Virus record (IMG/VR): IMGVR_UViG_3300046163_000073
Coordinates: 1 to 39,181 of that record
Length of the DNA: 39,181 nucleotides
Origin: a virus
Direction: 5' to 3' (one strand)
Shown: positions 15,822 through 31,375 of the stretch, in pieces
Layout: the number at the start of each line of letters is the position of its first letter
Numbering within the stretch: position 1 is the stretch's first letter
The notes under the pieces: model-generated
What the model was told of the DNA's origin: nothing
The model's input: the letters and a program-made list of their open reading frames with translations, nothing else
Databases searched by the model: none
Position numbers and translations under genes: made by a program

Positions 15822-16342
15822 TGGAAATAATATATAAGAAAATAGATGATTTGATGCCGTATGCTATGAATCAAAAAGAGCATCCACAGGAGCAAATAGA
15901 AAAAATAGCGAATAGCTTAAATCAGTTTGGCTTTAAACAGCCTATAGTAATAGATATAAACAATGAAATAATTGTAGGACATGGAAGATTTGAAGGTGCT
16001 AAAAAATTAAACTTGCAAGAAGTGCCATGCTTAATAGCCAATGATTTGTCTAGTGCAGAAATAAAAGCTTATAGACTCGCAGATAACAAACTAAATGAAT
16101 CAGATTGGAATGAGGATTTTGTTAATCTAGAATTACAAGTGCTAGATGATCTAAATTTTAATTATAGTGATTTGATGGAGTTTAATTTTGATTTAGAAGA
16201 TGAAGAAATTGATGATGATTTTTTTGAAGATGATATAAAAGAAGATACAGACAAAATAAAACTAAGCGTAGAGTGTGCGAATGACACAGATAAGCAACAG
16301 TTAAAAGAAGAATTACTAAGTAGGGGATACATATGTCAATAA
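15821..16342 (+). CDS. ParB-like nuclease-domain protein (173 aa)
   Basis: IDDLMPYAMNQKEHPQEQIEKIANSL, GFKQPIVID, EIIVGHGRFEGAKKL, VPCLIANDLSSAEIKAYRLADNKL is the ParB/Srx-type domain often fused to DNA methylases in phages. Here it is separate and followed, with overlap, by a Dam-type methylase, so the two probably form one modification module. An acidic linker (residues about 127-150) and a small C-terminal domain (KLSVECAND...LLSRGYICQ) follow. GTG start after AAAGGGG. Confidence 0.8.
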   Translation: MEIIYKKIDDLMPYAMNQKEHPQEQIEKIANSLNQFGFKQPIVIDINNEIIVGHGRFEGAKKLNLQEVPCLIANDLSSAEIKAYRLADNKLNESDWNEDFVNLELQVLDDLNFNYSDLMEFNFDLEDEEIDDDFFEDDIKEDTDKIKLSVECANDTDKQQLKEELLSRGYICQ

Positions 16343-17274
16343 CAGGGTTAGGAATGCCTTATATGGGCAGTAAAAGAAAGTTAGCACCCAAGATACTAAC
16401 TCACATAATAAAAGAGAATCCAAAGGCAAAATATTTTTATGATTTATTTGGTGGAGGTGGTAGTGTTTCAATGATGGCTTTACAAGTAAAACAATTTAAA
16501 GAATGTCACTATAACGAATATAATCCTGCAATAGCTAATCTATTAAAATATATTGTTGGAAATGGAATAACAGATGATATGTACAAATGGGTAAGTAGAG
16601 ATGAATTCCACAAAAATAAAAATAGAACTGATTGGTATGGTGGATTATTAAAAACAGTTTGGAGTTTTGGGAATAACCAAAATACATATTTATTTGGGAA
16701 AGACTTAGAATCAGATAAAAAAATACTTCACAGGATAGTGGTAGATAATAGAATCGAGTATATAGAAAAATTCAAAAAAAAGTTCGGGTTCGATTTTAAT
16801 TGTAATACTATACATAATACCTTAAAAGAAAAAGACATTGAAACAAGAAGAACAATAATAGCGAGAATTATAAAGAGTAAAAACAATAGATCCGACATAC
16901 AACAGTTAGAGAGATTACAACAGTTAGAGAGATTAGAACAGTTGCAACAATTAACACAACTTGAACAACTTTCAAGGATTGAACAACTTTCAATTACTAA
17001 TTTATCTTATGAGCAAGTAGAAATAAACACCCCAATAGAGGAAACTATACTTTATCTTGACCCACCGTACAAAAATACTGCAGGTTATAATAAGGTTATT
17101 GATTTTAATAAGCTAAAATATTTCATAGATAACAGCCCGTATAAAATATACTTGAGTGAATATAATAATACCTATGATATGAAATTGGTTAAACAGTATA
17201 AGCATAGAGGTTTATTAAGTGGAAGGGCTAATAATGAAGTTATCGAAAAGCTATTTTGCAATAAGGGAAGATAG
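16333..17274 (+). CDS. dam: D12-class DNA adenine methylase (313 aa)
   Basis: PYMGSKRKLAPKI and DLFGGGGSVS (residues 37-46) form the SAM-binding motif; YLDPPYKNT (DPPY 243-246) is the catalytic loop; NEYNP and YLSEYN support the D12 class. It should methylate adenine N6, probably at a GATC-like site, to protect phage DNA or adjust regulation. A Leu/Gln-rich insert at residues 190-220, from short tandem repeats, interrupts the fold before DPPY; similar L-Q-x-L inserts occur in other phage methylases of this class. Confidence 0.88.
   Translation: MSITGLGMPYMGSKRKLAPKILTHIIKENPKAKYFYDLFGGGGSVSMMALQVKQFKECHYNEYNPAIANLLKYIVGNGITDDMYKWVSRDEFHKNKNRTDWYGGLLKTVWSFGNNQNTYLFGKDLESDKKILHRIVVDNRIEYIEKFKKKFGFDFNCNTIHNTLKEKDIETRRTIIARIIKSKNNRSDIQQLERLQQLERLEQLQQLTQLEQLSRIEQLSITNLSYEQVEINTPIEETILYLDPPYKNTAGYNKVIDFNKLKYFIDNSPYKIYLSEYNNTYDMKLVKQYKHRGLLSGRANNEVIEKLFCNKGR
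16900..16992 (+). repeat. tandem Leu-Gln-x repeat in the methylase gene
   Basis: Repeats built on CAACAGTTAGAGAGATTA (18 bp) and diverged versions encode QQLERL-type units. Changes in copy number would keep the frame. Confidence 0.7.
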
Positions 17275-19249: not shown

Positions 19250-19488
19250 TATTTACCCTTTAAAGCATCGCTGCAATGTTCAATTAAATCAATTAAATTT
19301 TCTTCACTCATATCCTTCACCATACAAGCTAAGAAACCACTTGTTTTAAAATCAATATCAGCTTTAAACTCAGCAACAACAAAAGCTTCATTTGTTTCTA
19401 TGTTTACATTTACTTCTTTGATGTTCATATAATCGGTCATGTCGTAATTACGAAAGTAGATGCAATTATTCTTTATTTTAAATGGCAT
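19249..19488 (-). CDS. hypothetical protein, moron cassette 1 gene 1 (79 aa)
   Basis: MPFKIKNNCIYFRNYDMTDYM... looks beta then alpha; two Cys, no known motif. AAAAGGG is the ribosome binding site. Its promoter lies at 19505-19510. Such opposite-strand genes within structural operons are usually accessory; anti-defence or lysogenic roles are possible but unproven. Confidence 0.6.
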   Translation of the reverse strand: MPFKIKNNCIYFRNYDMTDYMNIKEVNVNIETNEAFVVAEFKADIDFKTSGFLACMVKDMSEENLIDLIEHCSDALKGK

Positions 19489-19504
19489 AAACCCTTTTTA
19501 TTTA

Positions 19505-19533
19505 ATTATACTAAAACCTCAACCTTAAACCAA
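19505..19533 (-). promoter_or_regulatory. leftward moron promoter 1
   Basis: On the minus strand, -35 TTGGTT (19533-19528), 17 bp, -10 TATAAT (19510-19505). The repeated element at 19571 lies 61 bp upstream. Confidence 0.6.
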
Positions 19534-19570
19534 AGAAAAGCCCAAAAAATACTAAATAATTTAATCTAAT

Positions 19571-19585
19571 GTTACGAACTTACCC
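19571..19585. promoter_or_regulatory. repeated operator-like element (site F), shared by divergent promoters
   Basis: GTTAC GAACT TACCC on the plus strand. Its right edge is 10 bp from the rightward -10 (19595), and its left edge is 61 bp from the leftward -10. Confidence 0.6.
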
Positions 19586-19591
19586 AAAATA

Positions 19592-19600
19592 TGCTATAAT
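19592..19600 (+). promoter_or_regulatory. late promoter 1
   Basis: TGCTATAAT, extended -10, preceded by CCCAAAATA as in the two promoters at 23166 and 23339. It reads the head operon from 19619. Confidence 0.7.
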
Positions 19601-19618
19601 AAAGGAAAAAGTAAATTT

Positions 19619-22714: not shown

Positions 22715-23050
22715 TTACCCTTCCCATTTTTTTAACAAATTTCTTGCATAGGCTCGAATATCTTCTCTTTTTTCTTTGTCCGATAATAACTGCTTAATAT
22801 CCGTTGATAATTCTTGAGCTAATTTATTAGATACTTTATCTGCAAGGTCTTTTTCTAAATTTTCAGCCATATGGTGCTTTACTTTTTCTTTGTCTACTTT
22901 TTCCCACACACTAGCAAAAAAATCGTTTGGAACTTGAAATTTACTCTGATAAGGTATAGAAACCCCCTCATCCAAATGTTTAATAATTGCTTTTGTAGCA
23001 CTTTTTACCATTTGCTCGCTTAATTCTTTTACCATATTTTCTGTATTCAT
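22715..23050 (-). CDS. hypothetical helical protein, moron cassette 2 (111 aa)
   Basis: All-helical and charged (MVKELSEQMVKSATKAIIKHLD, EKVKHHMAENLEKDLADKVSNKLAQEL). AAAGGATTAG is its ribosome binding site. It is transcribed against the head operon from its own promoter at 23080. No family recognised; an accessory role is inferred from its position. Confidence 0.6.
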   Translation of the reverse strand: MNTENMVKELSEQMVKSATKAIIKHLDEGVSIPYQSKFQVPNDFFASVWEKVDKEKVKHHMAENLEKDLADKVSNKLAQELSTDIKQLLSDKEKREDIRAYARNLLKKWEG

Positions 23051-23079
23051 ATTTCTAATCCTTTAAATTAAATTACTCA

Positions 23080-23108
23080 ACTATACCAAAACCCACAAAA
23101 AACATCAA
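23080..23108 (-). promoter_or_regulatory. leftward moron promoter 2
   Basis: On the minus strand, -35 TTGATG (23108-23103), 17-bp spacer, extended -10 TGGTATAGT (hexamer 23085-23080). Site G begins 60 bp upstream. Confidence 0.65.
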
Positions 23109-23144
23109 TAATATTAAACTTTTTAATAAAAAACCATTCTAACT

Positions 23145-23159
23145 GTTACTAACCTACCC
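23145..23159. promoter_or_regulatory. repeated operator-like element (site G), shared by divergent promoters
   Basis: GTTAC TAACC TACCC: 10 bp before the rightward -10 (23169) and 60 bp from the leftward -10 (23085). Confidence 0.65.
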
Positions 23160-23165
23160 AAAATA

Positions 23166-23174
23166 TGATATAAT
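23166..23174 (+). promoter_or_regulatory. late promoter 2 (small RNA promoter)
   Basis: TGATATAAT, extended -10, hexamer 23169-23174. The transcription start is expected near 23181. Confidence 0.7.
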
Positions 23175-23180
23175 ATCATT

Positions 23181-23264
23181 GTATTAGTACTATGATTAGC
23201 AATTAATTATAGTTTCAACTATAAGTAGAAACTTAAGCCAATAAGTATCTACTTTCTTTTTTTT
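23181..23264 (+). ncRNA. candidate phage small RNA (about 84 nt)
   Basis: It lies between a strong promoter and an intrinsic terminator and contains no coding frame of note. The 5' part folds as ACTATGATT (23189-23197) with AATTATAGT (23205-23213); alternatively TATAGTT (23208-23214) pairs with AACTATA (23217-23223), so two 5' folds are possible. The 3' end is the terminator stem plus U-tract, as in Hfq-type or other regulatory RNAs. Its target is unknown. Confidence 0.6.
23223..23264 (+). terminator. intrinsic terminator of the small RNA
   Basis: AAGTAGA (23223-23229) pairs with TCTACTT (23248-23254) and, after one A-A mismatch, ACTTA pairs with TAAGT around an AGCCAA loop; TTCTTTTTTTT-type tract follows at once. 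Confidence 0.8.
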
Positions 23265-23317
23265 AAACCTAAAAACATCAATAATATTAAACTTTTTAAT
23301 AAAAAACTAATCTAAGT

Positions 23318-23332
23318 GTTACCAACTTACCC
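23318..23332 (+). promoter_or_regulatory. repeated operator-like element (site G2)
   Basis: GTTAC CAACT TACCC, 10 bp before the -10 at 23342. No leftward promoter at 60 bp; the small-RNA terminator lies there. Confidence 0.6.
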
Positions 23333-23338
23333 AAAATA

Positions 23339-23347
23339 TGATATAAT
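23339..23347 (+). promoter_or_regulatory. late promoter 3 (scaffold/capsid)
   Basis: TGATATAAT, hexamer 23342-23347, reading the scaffold gene at 23375 and the major capsid gene. Confidence 0.7.
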
Positions 23348-23374
23348 AAGTAAATTTAAATTGGAGTATTTAAA

Positions 23375-24109
23375 ATGTTAGAAGATATTATTAAAGAATT
23401 ATCGGACGATAATCATGTTGCCTATATTAAAGGCTTAGACGAAAAAGCTCAAAATGTGGATACATTAACTACTGAAGTCAATGACTTAGAAAATGAATCT
23501 AATACATTTAAAAACAAAGCTCAAGATGCAATTGAGAGCAGAGATAAGGTCAAGACACTTATTAAAAATGAATTAGGTATTACAGAAATTAGCGGTGAGA
23601 GCTTAAGAGAAATAGCAAACAATAAAGGCACTAAAGGAGATGAAAAACTTTTAGCAGAAATTGAAAACTATAAATCTCAAATGGAAAGCATATCAAATGA
23701 CCATAAGTCTAAAGAGAGTGAATACATTTCGCAGATTAGAGATTTAAAGCTAGGATCAACTTTATCTGATTTAGTTAATTCATCTAATATAATTGATGAT
23801 AAAACAGCTAGAGCAGATGCAATGAATATTGTTAAATCACAGTTAAGCTATGATGACAATAACAATCCAGTATTTAAAAATGAAGATGGTACTACTAAAT
23901 TTAATAGTAACGGTCAAGCATATACTATTCAAGATGGGATTAATGATTTGATATCAAGCAGACCATATTTAGCAAAGCCAACAACGGAAAGTGGTGCAGG
24001 AACTCAGGGAAACCAACAACCGCAAACACCACCAGTTAATCAAGTTGCACAAGATGCAAAACAAAAAGGCGACTTAAACGGTTTTTTAAGTGCTTCAATA
24101 CAAAAATAA
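23375..24109 (+). CDS. putative scaffold protein (244 aa)
   Basis: Residues about 20-125 form a long coiled coil with many E, K, S and N; the C-terminus (about 200-244) is Q/P-rich and ends in a basic helix (AQDAKQKGDLNGFLSASIQK), the usual capsid-binding end of scaffolds. It is directly upstream of the major capsid gene and starts from its own late promoter. It should guide capsid assembly and be absent from the mature head. Confidence 0.75.
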   Translation: MLEDIIKELSDDNHVAYIKGLDEKAQNVDTLTTEVNDLENESNTFKNKAQDAIESRDKVKTLIKNELGITEISGESLREIANNKGTKGDEKLLAEIENYKSQMESISNDHKSKESEYISQIRDLKLGSTLSDLVNSSNIIDDKTARADAMNIVKSQLSYDDNNNPVFKNEDGTTKFNSNGQAYTIQDGINDLISSRPYLAKPTTESGAGTQGNQQPQTPPVNQVAQDAKQKGDLNGFLSASIQK

Positions 24110-24120
24110 GGAAAATATAA

Positions 24121-25269
24121 ATGAATTCAAATGAACTATTGGCATCCCTAAACGCGGATGTAATGAATGAAGCTTTTGAGATAGCAAGAACAAACATACC
24201 AGGTGTTATTGGTACTATTAAAATGGGTGCAAGTAGAATTCCAGAGTCGGGCTCTAAATTATCTTGGATGGATATGCAAATTTCAGCAGGTGGAGATACT
24301 GTAAATGGTGCTATTGCTAACAACGTAACAACTTTAGTTGTAGATGATGGTTCTAAGTTTAGAGCAGGTATGCAAATATCGGTTAAAGATTCAGATGAGG
24401 TTATGCTAGTTACAGCAGTATCAACTAATTCACTTACAGTTACAAGAGGATTTGGTGGAACAACAGCAGTTGCAATAGTAGATGATGCAGTTGTTACAAT
24501 TGATTCAGTTGGTAGAGGCGAAAACTCACTAGGAGAAGATGATGGGATTGTTGAACCAACACCAAAAGATAACTTATTCCAAACATTCGATACACAGTTA
24601 AACTTCTCTAGAAGAATGATGGCAACAGCACAGCATGGGAACATGAACTCAATCACTACTCAAATTAGTGAAAGAATGAAGCAATTAATGATTCAAATGA
24701 ATAGAGCATTAATTAAAGGTAGAAAAGCAACTGCTACTGTAGGTTCAGATTCAGTAACTTTTGTTGGTGGTGTAAAATATTACTTAGATCAAACTGGTGC
24801 TTTAAATGTTGATAACTCAGGTGCAGTTTTAACAGAAACTAAACTTGATGATTTATCAGAGGCTATTTTATTAGCAGGTGGAACTTCAGATACTATTGCA
24901 GTAAACACTAGACTTGGAAGAAAACTGACTGCTTTAATGAGAGCTAATTTCCAATCTCAAAGATTATCAGAGTCACAAGATGATAAAGGTGCAGTTTCAA
25001 GAATTGTTTCAGACTTACCATTAGTTGGAAATGTAAACCAAATTGTTATTGATACAAACCTAAATGATGATGAATTAATTATGTATGATTCAAGCATGAT
25101 TGAAATTATCCCTATGGGGGCAGGTAATGGAGAGCAAGACGGTAATTGGCAGACTAAAGATGCTACAGCCCAAGGTCAAGATGGTGTTAAAGTTAGAATT
25201 ATCGGTGACTTCTCATTTGAGATTAAACAAGCGGAAACACATTTCCATAGATTATATAATATTGGCTAG
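24121..25269 (+). CDS. major capsid protein, HK97-fold (DUF5309/SU10-like) (382 aa)
   Basis: Placed right after the scaffold and AAGGAAA. The layout resembles SU10-type capsid proteins: N-terminal arm, an inserted beta-domain (about 60-135, TLVVDDGSKFRAGMQISV...LTVTRGFGG), then LFQTFDTQLNFSRR, ISERMKQLMIQMNRALIKGRK, and a C-terminal QTKDATAQGQDGVKVRIIGDFSFEI. Dense Thr/Val/Ala use is typical of a highly expressed structural protein. Confidence 0.82.
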   Translation: MNSNELLASLNADVMNEAFEIARTNIPGVIGTIKMGASRIPESGSKLSWMDMQISAGGDTVNGAIANNVTTLVVDDGSKFRAGMQISVKDSDEVMLVTAVSTNSLTVTRGFGGTTAVAIVDDAVVTIDSVGRGENSLGEDDGIVEPTPKDNLFQTFDTQLNFSRRMMATAQHGNMNSITTQISERMKQLMIQMNRALIKGRKATATVGSDSVTFVGGVKYYLDQTGALNVDNSGAVLTETKLDDLSEAILLAGGTSDTIAVNTRLGRKLTALMRANFQSQRLSESQDDKGAVSRIVSDLPLVGNVNQIVIDTNLNDDELIMYDSSMIEIIPMGAGNGEQDGNWQTKDATAQGQDGVKVRIIGDFSFEIKQAETHFHRLYNIG

Positions 25270-27704: not shown

Positions 27705-28111
27705 GTGTATCAATATTAGAAACAGCAGTTACAATACAAAGATATGTAGTGCAAAATATCGCAGAAACTGGATTAACTGTATCAGATATCAATGTGTTTG
27801 ATGATAAATTCGATGATAGCAATAAAAGCAAATGGATAGCTTTAGATACTTACCCAGTTGCTAATAATTTAATAGCTGTAAATGGAACAGTAGCAGGTGT
27901 ACAAGAGCTTTTAACAACTGTAGATATATATTGTTACAATACTAATAAAAAGAATACTTATGGTTTAGTTGATGATGTAAAATCTATGCTAGAGAATAGA
28001 GAGCTAGATAATGGTGTTATTGTTAGGCTTGGAACACCACAACCACCAAACAAATTACAAAATAATGTTTGGGAATGTGTAGTTTCTTTTAGTGTTACTC
28101 AGAGCGGATAA
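27701..28111 (+). CDS. putative tail terminator protein (136 aa)
   Basis: Order and size match siphovirus tail terminators (gpU-like): a helical start, KWIALDTYPVANN, GVQELLTTVDIYCYN, and a final [10 protein letters not shown] strand. It ends tail-tube polymerisation and connects to the neck. Its 3' end overlaps a convergent leftward gene by 17 bases. Confidence 0.65.
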   Translation: MSVSILETAVTIQRYVVQNIAETGLTVSDINVFDDKFDDSNKSKWIALDTYPVANNLIAVNGTVAGVQELLTTVDIYCYNTNKKNTYGLVDDVKSMLENRELDNGVIVRLGTPQPPNKLQNNVWECVVSFSVTQSG

Positions 28112-28550
28112 AGCTTATAACTTCATCTTTATCAATATTAAACATATTAGTTTTTACGTTTAGTTTTTTAATGTAATTCAAAATAGTATACCTACTCTTA
28201 TTGTTTTGAGTTGCAAATTTTCTAACAGATAACCATTTGTTCTTAACTATTGTTTCTAAAATATCTACTTCTAATTTTCTTATTTTAAAAGATTTATCAT
28301 TTTTAGTTAAGATTCTATCTACTCTATTTAATACAAAGATATGACCATTTATAATAAATCTATAGTTTCCTAAGCTTACTCTGTTTTCTATCATTTCAGC
28401 ATATAATTGTGATACTTTAGATATATTTCTTTTATTACCTCTGTAATCCCAAATAGTTTTTCTTGCAATTTCTAAGAAATCAGCTAACTTAACATCCGTA
28501 TCTATGTCATGATAATACTTGATTATGTTTAATGTTTTATTATTGTTCAT
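28095..28550 (-). CDS. HTH DNA-binding protein, moron cassette 3 gene 2 (151 aa)
   Basis: Two possible helix-turn-helix units: [21 protein letters not shown] (about 21-41) and [23 protein letters not shown] (about 105-130). In between lies a beta-hairpin ([17 protein letters not shown]). The combination suggests a regulator or homing-type DNA binder. It is co-transcribed with the pentapeptide-repeat gene (4-base overlap). A candidate for the protein that binds the repeated GTAAC elements. Confidence 0.6.
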
Positions 28551-28966
28551 TCTTCATCCTTTAATATATCAGTATATAGAAATATTAATTTTTCATAGTT
28601 ACTGCCATTACCATATTTCCTCCCAACTGCTTCTATAGCTTCATTGGTATCACCCCAAAAGCAACCTAATTGAAACATTACACAGTCTTTATACTTTACT
28701 GCTGTACATAATCTATTAAACTCACCTGCAGTAAATGACTTTATATTTTTAGCTCCAAAAAGGTTAGCTCCTCTAAGGTCTGCTCCATAAAGGTCTGCTC
28801 CATAAAGGTCTGCTCCATAAAGGTCTGCTCCTCTAAGGTTAGCTCCAAAAAGGTTAGCTCCTCTAAGGTTAGCTCCTCTAAGGTTAGCTCCTCTAAGGTT
28901 AGCTCCTCTAAGGTTAGCTCCTCTAAATATTATTTCCCCTTCCAAATTTGTAATTATCATTTTCAA
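28547..28966 (-). CDS. pentapeptide repeat protein, moron cassette 3 gene 1 (139 aa)
   Basis: Residues 15-74 are twelve pentapeptides (RGANL x5, [15 protein letters not shown] x3, [10 protein letters not shown]) matching A(N/D)LXX, which fold as a right-handed beta-helix. Some such proteins mimic DNA and bind gyrase, but this one is short and other roles are possible. The C-terminal 65 residues ([38 protein letters not shown]) form a distinct domain seen with pentapeptide repeats in phages. Ribosome binding site AAAAAGGATTG. Confidence 0.8.
28745..28924 (-). repeat. 15-bp tandem repeats coding pentapeptides
   Basis: Twelve 15-bp units based on CTCCTCTAAGGTTAG (plus strand), several exact. 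Codon choice is identical across units, so expansion was recent. Confidence 0.9.
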
Positions 28967-29095: not shown

Positions 29096-30067
29096 ATGAA
29101 AAATAGTAGAAAAACCGCCTTGCTTTTAACAAGTGGAGCAACAGCACCAACAATATCGCAACAATTTATCACAGATAGTGCAGTAGTAGTCAATCCTCAA
29201 ACGGATGACGATAACTATAAAGTTTTAACAGGTTCGCTTGGTGGTGGAAATGTAACTTACACAGATGCAAACAAGGTTACATTAAATCAATCACTTAATC
29301 ACATTATGATTGCTTCTAATCCTGACGGAACATCACTTGCAACACCTCCTCAGTATGGAGAAGCTTTAAAGATATGTGGATTTACTGAAACTATTGATAC
29401 AGCTACAGCAGGACAAGAAACGGTAACTTATACAAACACACAAAGCCCAGCTAAGGGGTCGGTAACTGTTTATCAAGATGGTCATAAATTTTCAGCTACA
29501 AACTCTGTAGTAGGTTCTTTAACTATTGATGGTCAAGCAGGTAGAAAAATGACAATGGGTGTAGCCTTACAAGGTTATTACGATAATGCAGGTATCCCAG
29601 TAGTTGAAGCAACTCCAACACTACCAACTAAAGATAACACTTCACAAGTAGGGTTCACTACAGTTGATTTAGTTACTTTTGATGGTACAGCAGTGACAGC
29701 AGATGCTTTTAGAATTAATATGAATCCTGAAATCGGAAATACTTATGCAACAGGCACAAAAGAATTCAACATTGATGACTACAGTCCAACGATTGAAGTA
29801 GATTTTTTCACAACTAACGCAAACTACTTAACAGCATTTAATGATAGAGCAGATAAAACTGTAAAAGAAATTATCATCCAAACTAACAAAGATGCTTCGG
29901 GAAATATGGTAAGCGGTAAATCTATTCAAATCAAAGCTTCAAGAGCATCTGTGGCAGGTATTAATGATGGTGATACTGATAATAAAATTAAAAGAACATT
30001 AACATTTAATCTAGGTTTAGATGGTTCTCAAATGGCTTTAGAGATTAAGCACGGATACTTTTCTTAA
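29096..30067 (+). CDS. major tail tube protein (323 aa)
   Basis: A Thr/Ala/Gly-rich, beta-strand-rich protein directly before the G/GT chaperone genes, the fixed siphovirus position of the tail tube subunit. AFRINMNPEIGNTYATGTKEFNIDDYSPTIEVDFF and the C-terminal IKRTLTFNLGLDGSQMALEIKHGYF fit tube-protein beta sandwiches. Own late promoter. Confidence 0.78.
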   Translation: MKNSRKTALLLTSGATAPTISQQFITDSAVVVNPQTDDDNYKVLTGSLGGGNVTYTDANKVTLNQSLNHIMIASNPDGTSLATPPQYGEALKICGFTETIDTATAGQETVTYTNTQSPAKGSVTVYQDGHKFSATNSVVGSLTIDGQAGRKMTMGVALQGYYDNAGIPVVEATPTLPTKDNTSQVGFTTVDLVTFDGTAVTADAFRINMNPEIGNTYATGTKEFNIDDYSPTIEVDFFTTNANYLTAFNDRADKTVKEIIIQTNKDASGNMVSGKSIQIKASRASVAGINDGDTDNKIKRTLTFNLGLDGSQMALEIKHGYFS

Positions 30068-30625: not shown

Positions 30626-30948
30626 CAAGAGTAGAAAATCTTTTAGTCTGGGCGGAACAATACGCTCAGGGAGATGATTTTACTAAACTACAAAGCTACG
30701 AAATAGAAGAATATAAGAATCATCCAAACAATAGTTATGTAATATTTGATAAAGAAGATTTGGAGTACGATTTAGTACATATTTTTAAATCAATCCCTTA
30801 TGAATATAGTTCGATAAGTGGAAAGCCTTTGAAGTTAGATTTTGACCGTATGAGTTCAAGACTTAAAAGCCGTGATTTAGATGTAGATTATTATTCAGAA
30901 TTACTAGATGCTTTGTTTGCTCGTTTCGTAGCTTATCTTCCAAAGTAG
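30164..30948 (+). CDS. G-T tail assembly chaperone made by -1 frameshift (261 aa)
   Basis: The -1 frame is open from 30604 to the stop at 30946-30948 and reads VENLLVWAEQYAQGDDF...LDALFARFVAYLPK after the slip, about 108 residues without a good start codon near its beginning. A shift at G-GGA-AAG (30616-30622) joins it to the G protein, as in lambda gpGT. In lambda, the ratio of G to GT sets correct tail assembly. Confidence 0.78.
30616..30622 (+). other. programmed -1 frameshift site GGGAAAG
   Basis: In phase as G-GGA-AAG (X-XXY-YYZ), identical to the heptamer used by lambda G-T, three bases before the zero-frame stop. Confidence 0.85.
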
Positions 30949-30970
30949 GATTAATTTCCTACTTTTTCTA
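30942..30970 (+). terminator. intrinsic terminator after the tail chaperone
   Basis: AAAGTAGGA-TTAATT-TCCTACTTT, a perfect 9-bp stem, followed by TTCTATTTTTC. It overlaps the GT stop and separates the tube/chaperone transcript from the tape measure transcript. Confidence 0.8.
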
Positions 30971-30975
30971 TTTTT

Positions 30976-31228
30976 CTAATCCTTTAATTTTGCTTGGATT
31001 TTAATTTGAGAAGTTGAAATTCCTAAACCAACATGTAAGATGTGTTCAATCTGAAATTCAAAAGATGTATGTGCTTTCTGAAGTTTATTAAAGAGTTCTA
31101 AAAGTTTATTATGGCAGAATTCAATTACCAGTTAAATAGTGCGCATAAAAATTTCTTTTAGAAATTCTTTATGTGTTACTTCTTATTTATAATTATTTTA
31201 ATATTAACACTGATCATTCATCTCCCAT
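30976..31228 (-). pseudogene. decayed leftward moron (cassette 4)
   Basis: On the minus strand a good promoter (31258-31286) and AAAGGATTAG (31242-31233) lead to ATG codons at 31228, 31221 and 31217 that stop quickly. Further on, one frame reads EFCHNKLLELFNKLQKAHTS...HVGLGISTSQIKIQ and ends KD-stop at 30976, preceded by in-frame TAA codons and a frame change. The end AAAGGATTAG (30985-30976) is a second ribosome binding site without a gene after it. It looks like a two-gene moron that has lost its second gene and the frame of its first. Confidence 0.5.
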
Positions 31229-31257
31229 TTTTCTAATCCTTTAATTTTAATATTCAA

Positions 31258-31286
31258 ACTATAACAAGATAAATTAAAAACATCAA
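31258..31286 (-). promoter_or_regulatory. leftward moron promoter 4 (now without intact gene)
   Basis: On the minus strand, -35 TTGATG (31286-31281), 17-bp spacer, extended -10 TGTTATAGT (hexamer 31263-31258). Site I begins 60 bp upstream. Confidence 0.6.
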
Positions 31287-31322
31287 GAAAAACTAAAATT
31301 CTAAAAAATAAACTAACCAACT

Positions 31323-31337
31323 TTTACTAACAGTAAC
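31323..31337. promoter_or_regulatory. repeated operator-like element (site I), shared by divergent promoters
   Basis: TTTAC TAACA GTAAC: 10 bp before the rightward -10 (31347) and 60 bp from the leftward -10. Confidence 0.6.
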
Positions 31338-31343
31338 AAAATA

Positions 31344-31352
31344 TGGTATAAT
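31344..31352 (+). promoter_or_regulatory. late promoter 5 (tape measure)
   Basis: TGGTATAAT, hexamer 31347-31352, upstream of AAAAAGGG and the tape measure ATG at 31376. Confidence 0.65.
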
Positions 31353-31375
31353 ACTAATAAAAAAGGGTTTTTCTT

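Follow-up and report, generated by a model that had tools for sequence, protein, structure and literature searches.

The window, by which we mean the whole 39,181-base virus record analysed here, has a G+C content of 30% and encodes the large terminase (Terminase_6N/Terminase_3 in Pfam), portal, Mu F-like, scaffold-like, SU10-type major capsid and tape measure proteins. The equivalents of the scaffold-like protein P0001 in Vibrio phages are annotated as 'coil containing protein', and the major capsid protein P0002 is at most 51% identical to those of Vibrio phages. No DNA similarity to the window was found among annotated phages and plasmids. The Mu F-like gene, when searched for elsewhere, was found only in a near-identical phage (contig IMGVR_UViG_3300048109_000311; 99.2-99.9% identity across large aligned blocks), and this phage is also the only match in IMG/VR of the minus-strand accessory gene P0003, which has no match in Pfam or PHROG. 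The region between P0003 and the scaffold-like gene contains two copies of a promoter segment, with an intrinsic terminator between them (Table 1).

The two copies of this 78-bp repeat are 94% identical and spaced 173 bp apart. Each contains an extended -10 element, TGATATAAT (23166-23174 and 23339-23347), and ends one base further, and GTTACNAACNTACCC occupies the -35 position of both. The 30-base core of the repeat, GTTACNAACNTACCCAAAATATGATATAAT, is present with at most 3 mismatches at three sites of the window (19571, 23145 and 23318), compared with an expectation of 0 in shuffled sequences. Diverged or related versions are found before the tape measure gene and before the gene at 29096, the promoter of which contains a related box, AGTAACAA, whereas the promoter-like sites in the early half of the genome (668, 3456 and 13958) possess the extended -10 element and lack the box. 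An exact search of all viral contigs with the core pattern returned the near-identical phage only. Given the positions of its members, it is reasonable to regard the P1/P2 type as a late promoter class, and P1 itself is probably active. With regard to the late expression in the head operon proposed in the first-pass annotation, the late class of the promoter, as judged by position, and the adjacency to P0001 and P0002 are supported.

Table 1 Features of the locus and related promoters elsewhere in the window
Feature	Position	Strand	Remarks
Late promoter before portal operon, same class	19562-19617	+	86% match; pattern match with 1 mismatch
P0003, accessory gene	22715-23050	-	111 aa; ORF with AAAGGAT Shine-Dalgarno-like leader
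Putative bidirectional control region (minus-strand P0003 promoter and plus-strand P1)	23052-23175		124 nt, 75% identity to 31230-31353
Repeat copy 1, late promoter P1	23098-23175	+	-10 TATAAT at 23169-23174
Predicted short untranslated RNA from P1	23181-23264	+	Downstream of P1, through terminator; no ORF
Intrinsic terminator ahead of scaffold promoter	23223-23264	+	-10.1 kcal/mol, z -3.9 vs 1000 shuffles
Repeat copy 2, late promoter P2 of scaffold/capsid operon	23271-23348	+	-10 TATAAT at 23342-23347
P0001, scaffold-like protein gene	23375-24109	+	Directly 5' of capsid gene
P0002, major capsid protein gene	24121-25269	+	Pfam SU10_MCP, E 5.1e-30
Late promoter before tape measure gene, same class, diverged	31275-31353	+	75% match

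The terminator, which consists of a stem formed by AAGTAGAAACTTA and TAAGTATCTACTT and the T-rich tail TCTTTTTTTT, lies outside the repeat, between the -10 element of P1 and the start of copy 2. It was missed by a consensus terminator scan and by a first, stricter scan, due to the low G+C content of the stem and a C in the T tract, and was detected by a looser scan. A similar terminator (AAGTAG..CTACTTT, AAAGTAGGATTAATTTCCTACTTT) occupies 30942-30965, before the tape measure gene, and two of the late promoters of the window are preceded by terminators.

As a sequence feature, the unit that extends from P1 to the terminator is real. P1 probably gives rise to a short RNA of about 84 nt; a transcript start near 23181 is plausible given the extended -10 element upstream. 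The 84-nt RNA is predicted to fold at -18.9 kcal/mol (z -4.1), better than all 200 shuffled sequences. Most of this structural signal comes from the terminator, and the 42-nt 5' part taken alone is marginal (p = 0.02). The 25 top-ranked suboptimal structures, which lie within about 2.2 kcal/mol of the optimum, all combine the terminator with a single dominant stem (about 10 bp). No ORF of at least 20 aa overlaps the segment on either strand, so that a small peptide was rejected, and a search with the Rfam covariance models gave no match, so that a known RNA family was rejected as well. The AGTTTC/GAAACT antiterminator pairing reaches -9.4 kcal/mol, compared with -18.9 kcal/mol for the terminated form, and, with this deficit of 9.5 kcal/mol, an attenuator fold was rejected too. 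The first-pass annotation thus described the duplicated promoter segment, the terminator, the absence of a coding frame and the complete unit of about 84 nt correctly, whereas the second of the two alternative 5' hairpins that it assigned to the RNA does not appear among the 25 structures.

P1 is not merely a copy of P2. By sequence comparison, the control region in front of P0003 shares homology over its whole length with the region that precedes the tape measure gene; the left part of the P0003 control region, with the core promoter excluded, yields a score of 37, compared with 10.7 +/- 4.4 in 1000 shuffles. Just 5' of the late promoters located at 19571 and 29066, there are minus-strand genes as well. 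One further minus-strand gene (about 80 aa) is present in the near-identical phage just 5' of the portal-operon late promoter, at a site that corresponds to 19488-19506 of the window (L006:11578-11790), and this phage is missing about 310 bp (30966-31278 of the window) just 5' of the tape-measure late promoter. At the tape-measure locus of this phage, the terminator is followed by the late promoter, with the late -10 element within about 70 bases of the terminator. Comparison of the two genomes shows that minus-strand segments 5' of late promoters are gained or lost between them, through insertion or deletion. The segment 30966-31278, which in the window separates the terminator from the tape-measure late promoter, contains no clear minus-strand ORF and is possibly a degraded accessory gene.

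The explanation of this layout that we favor, with moderate confidence, is a combination of transcriptional punctuation and duplication of a late promoter through cassette insertion, such that the terminator shields the capsid promoter and the RNA is mainly a by-product. A cassette consisting of P0003 and the shared control region would have entered between the Mu F-like gene and an already existing terminator-P2 pair, and P1 would be the plus-strand half of the bidirectional control region brought in with P0003. With the older terminator-P2 pair still in place, transcription from P1 would now cover only about 84 nt before it is stopped ahead of P2, and the RNA would accordingly be mainly a by-product, devoid of a trans function. 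The terminator, which is best read as punctuation ahead of P2, would end plus-strand transcription there and keep transcription from P1 or from further upstream from running over the scaffold/capsid promoter. As no genome that lacks P1 but otherwise resembles the window was found, the order of insertion is one that we infer. As the simpler reading, a terminator and a promoter duplicated by cassette insertion explain the layout better than a regulatory or packaging role of the RNA.

Several observations argue for the insertion of a cassette and the by-product status of the RNA, namely, the homology of the P1 control region, the variable segments next to late promoters, the marginal fold of the 5' part, the lack of a target signal (see below) and the order of terminator and promoter in relatives. 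Among the relatives gathered via the capsid protein, a terminator followed by a promoter-like box is found 5' of the scaffold gene in L021, L022, L023, L070, L081, L097 and others. On the opposite side, among large gaps, those that precede scaffold genes do not contain a terminator significantly more often than the others (8/13 vs 34/88, p = 0.14), and a second comparison of scaffold gaps with other gaps gave a trend only (9/43 vs 44/365, p = 0.15). In addition, a single crossover between the direct repeats could remove the unit, yet both known genomes keep it; this retention is weak evidence because the two phages belong to nearly the same lineage. Finally, in L021, the nearest capsid relative (61% capsid identity, 31% G+C), the terminator is preceded at a distance of about 100 nt by a TATAAT box, and the intervening sequence is unlike that of the window. 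This box could reflect a shared RNA slot or chance, given that, by our own estimate, TATAAT is not rare in AT-rich DNA.

Among the alternatives, the one that fares best, with a low but appreciable probability, is a dedicated trans-acting small RNA that would be expressed late and act on phage or host mRNAs by base pairing or by protein binding. Intrinsic terminators with a U-rich tail are typical of many Hfq-type small RNAs, and the unit has such a terminator together with its own predicted promoter, no ORF and a fold better than that of all shuffled sequences. The RNA is also kept in both genomes, the only other copy, in the near-identical phage, being identical across the 325 bp examined, within surroundings that are 99.9% identical. 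However, the fold signal mostly stems from the terminator, and, in duplexes predicted with 69 translation starts of the phage, neither the RNA without the U tail (P 0.93) nor its 5' part (P 0.11) paired better than shuffled RNAs. Besides the lack of an Rfam match, no diverged homologue was detected in viral contigs, where an exact search with the terminator stem returned the near-identical phage only, and no recognisably homologous RNA is present in L021 or in L009, the one terminase relative that reaches the scaffold gene. A trans-acting small RNA is therefore possible but unsupported, and the dedicated regulatory or packaging function suggested in the first-pass annotation is not supported by these searches. 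If functional, the RNA would be a late phage small RNA of a new family, adjoining the capsid genes.

A related and less probable scenario is that phages of the capsid group use the stretch from the portal operon to the scaffold promoter as a slot for short RNA genes, which would be occupied by tRNAs in L071 and L081, by an orphan late small RNA in the window and, possibly, by another RNA in L021; on this view, the RNA of the window would belong to a new family and function as a late regulator. The tRNA genes that fill the matching slot (Gly and Trp in L071:287-442; Ser and Thr in L081:3897-4064) lie directly before a terminator and the scaffold promoter. No tRNA genes were found within the window.

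Slightly behind in probability comes a leader with a regulated terminator, whereby P1 and P2 would both serve the scaffold/capsid operon and late antitermination would let the P1 transcripts through. In phage lambda, the late promoter pR' is followed by the terminator tR', which results in a short untranslated RNA (6S RNA leader). The locus is broadly similar to this arrangement in that a late-class promoter is followed by an immediate terminator in front of a structural operon. Unlike in lambda, a second, near-identical promoter 3' of the terminator can serve the operon directly and alone, no antiterminator protein was identified, and the antiterminator pairing is far less stable than the terminated form. 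It is highly improbable that the RNA has a packaging-related role like that of the phi29 pRNA: the one point of support is the position near the head genes, whereas the window encodes a large terminase and not a packaging ATPase of the phi29 type, the RNA has a length of 84 nt and a location beside the scaffold gene, and the terminase relative spanning this region has no homologue of it.

Phage accessory genes with their own promoters are known as morons. The minus-strand accessory genes of the window resemble morons in possessing their own promoters, residing between late operons and varying between close relatives, but the P0003 cassette differs in sharing a control region with a late promoter. 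The nearest described phenomenon, going by the account in PMC4503421, is the PeSL, a promoter/stem-loop cassette of T4-like phages (Arbiol 2010; Comeau 2014, as cited in PMC4503421), in which promoter and terminator motifs are repeated at the borders of gene modules and are said to mediate modular shuffling (PMC4503421). In the window, the promoter recurs at several module borders, and the terminators that precede two of the promoters lie outside the 78-bp repeat. Compared with the PeSLs as described there, the promoter precedes structural genes instead of being an early one, and the phage is not T4-like but has an SU10_MCP-type capsid and a genome of about 39 kb. The locus resembles a PeSL in its logic but, given the late class of its promoter and a phage that is not T4-like, is not a PeSL on that description. 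If the RNA is indeed a by-product of cassette insertion, the locus illustrates that, in phages other than the T4-like ones, the boundaries of exchangeable gene cassettes can be marked by duplicated late promoters, and it cautions against taking a promoter-terminator pair in a phage genome, on its own, as evidence of a regulatory RNA.

Four terminase relatives (L007:1487-2707, L008:4052-5272, L009:10001-11221 and L010:1443-2627) are 59-67% identical. In L009, the gene at the capsid position is apparently unrelated, so that head modules seem to have been exchanged. Elsewhere in the window, a pentapeptide-repeat protein with tandem repeats (28547-28966, minus strand; Pfam Pentapeptide, E 7e-25) is encoded between late operons and adjoins the gene for an HTH-like protein (28095-28550), and a D12-class adenine-specific DNA methyltransferase gene (16333-17274, plus strand; Pfam E 2e-17) is located 5' of the terminase gene.
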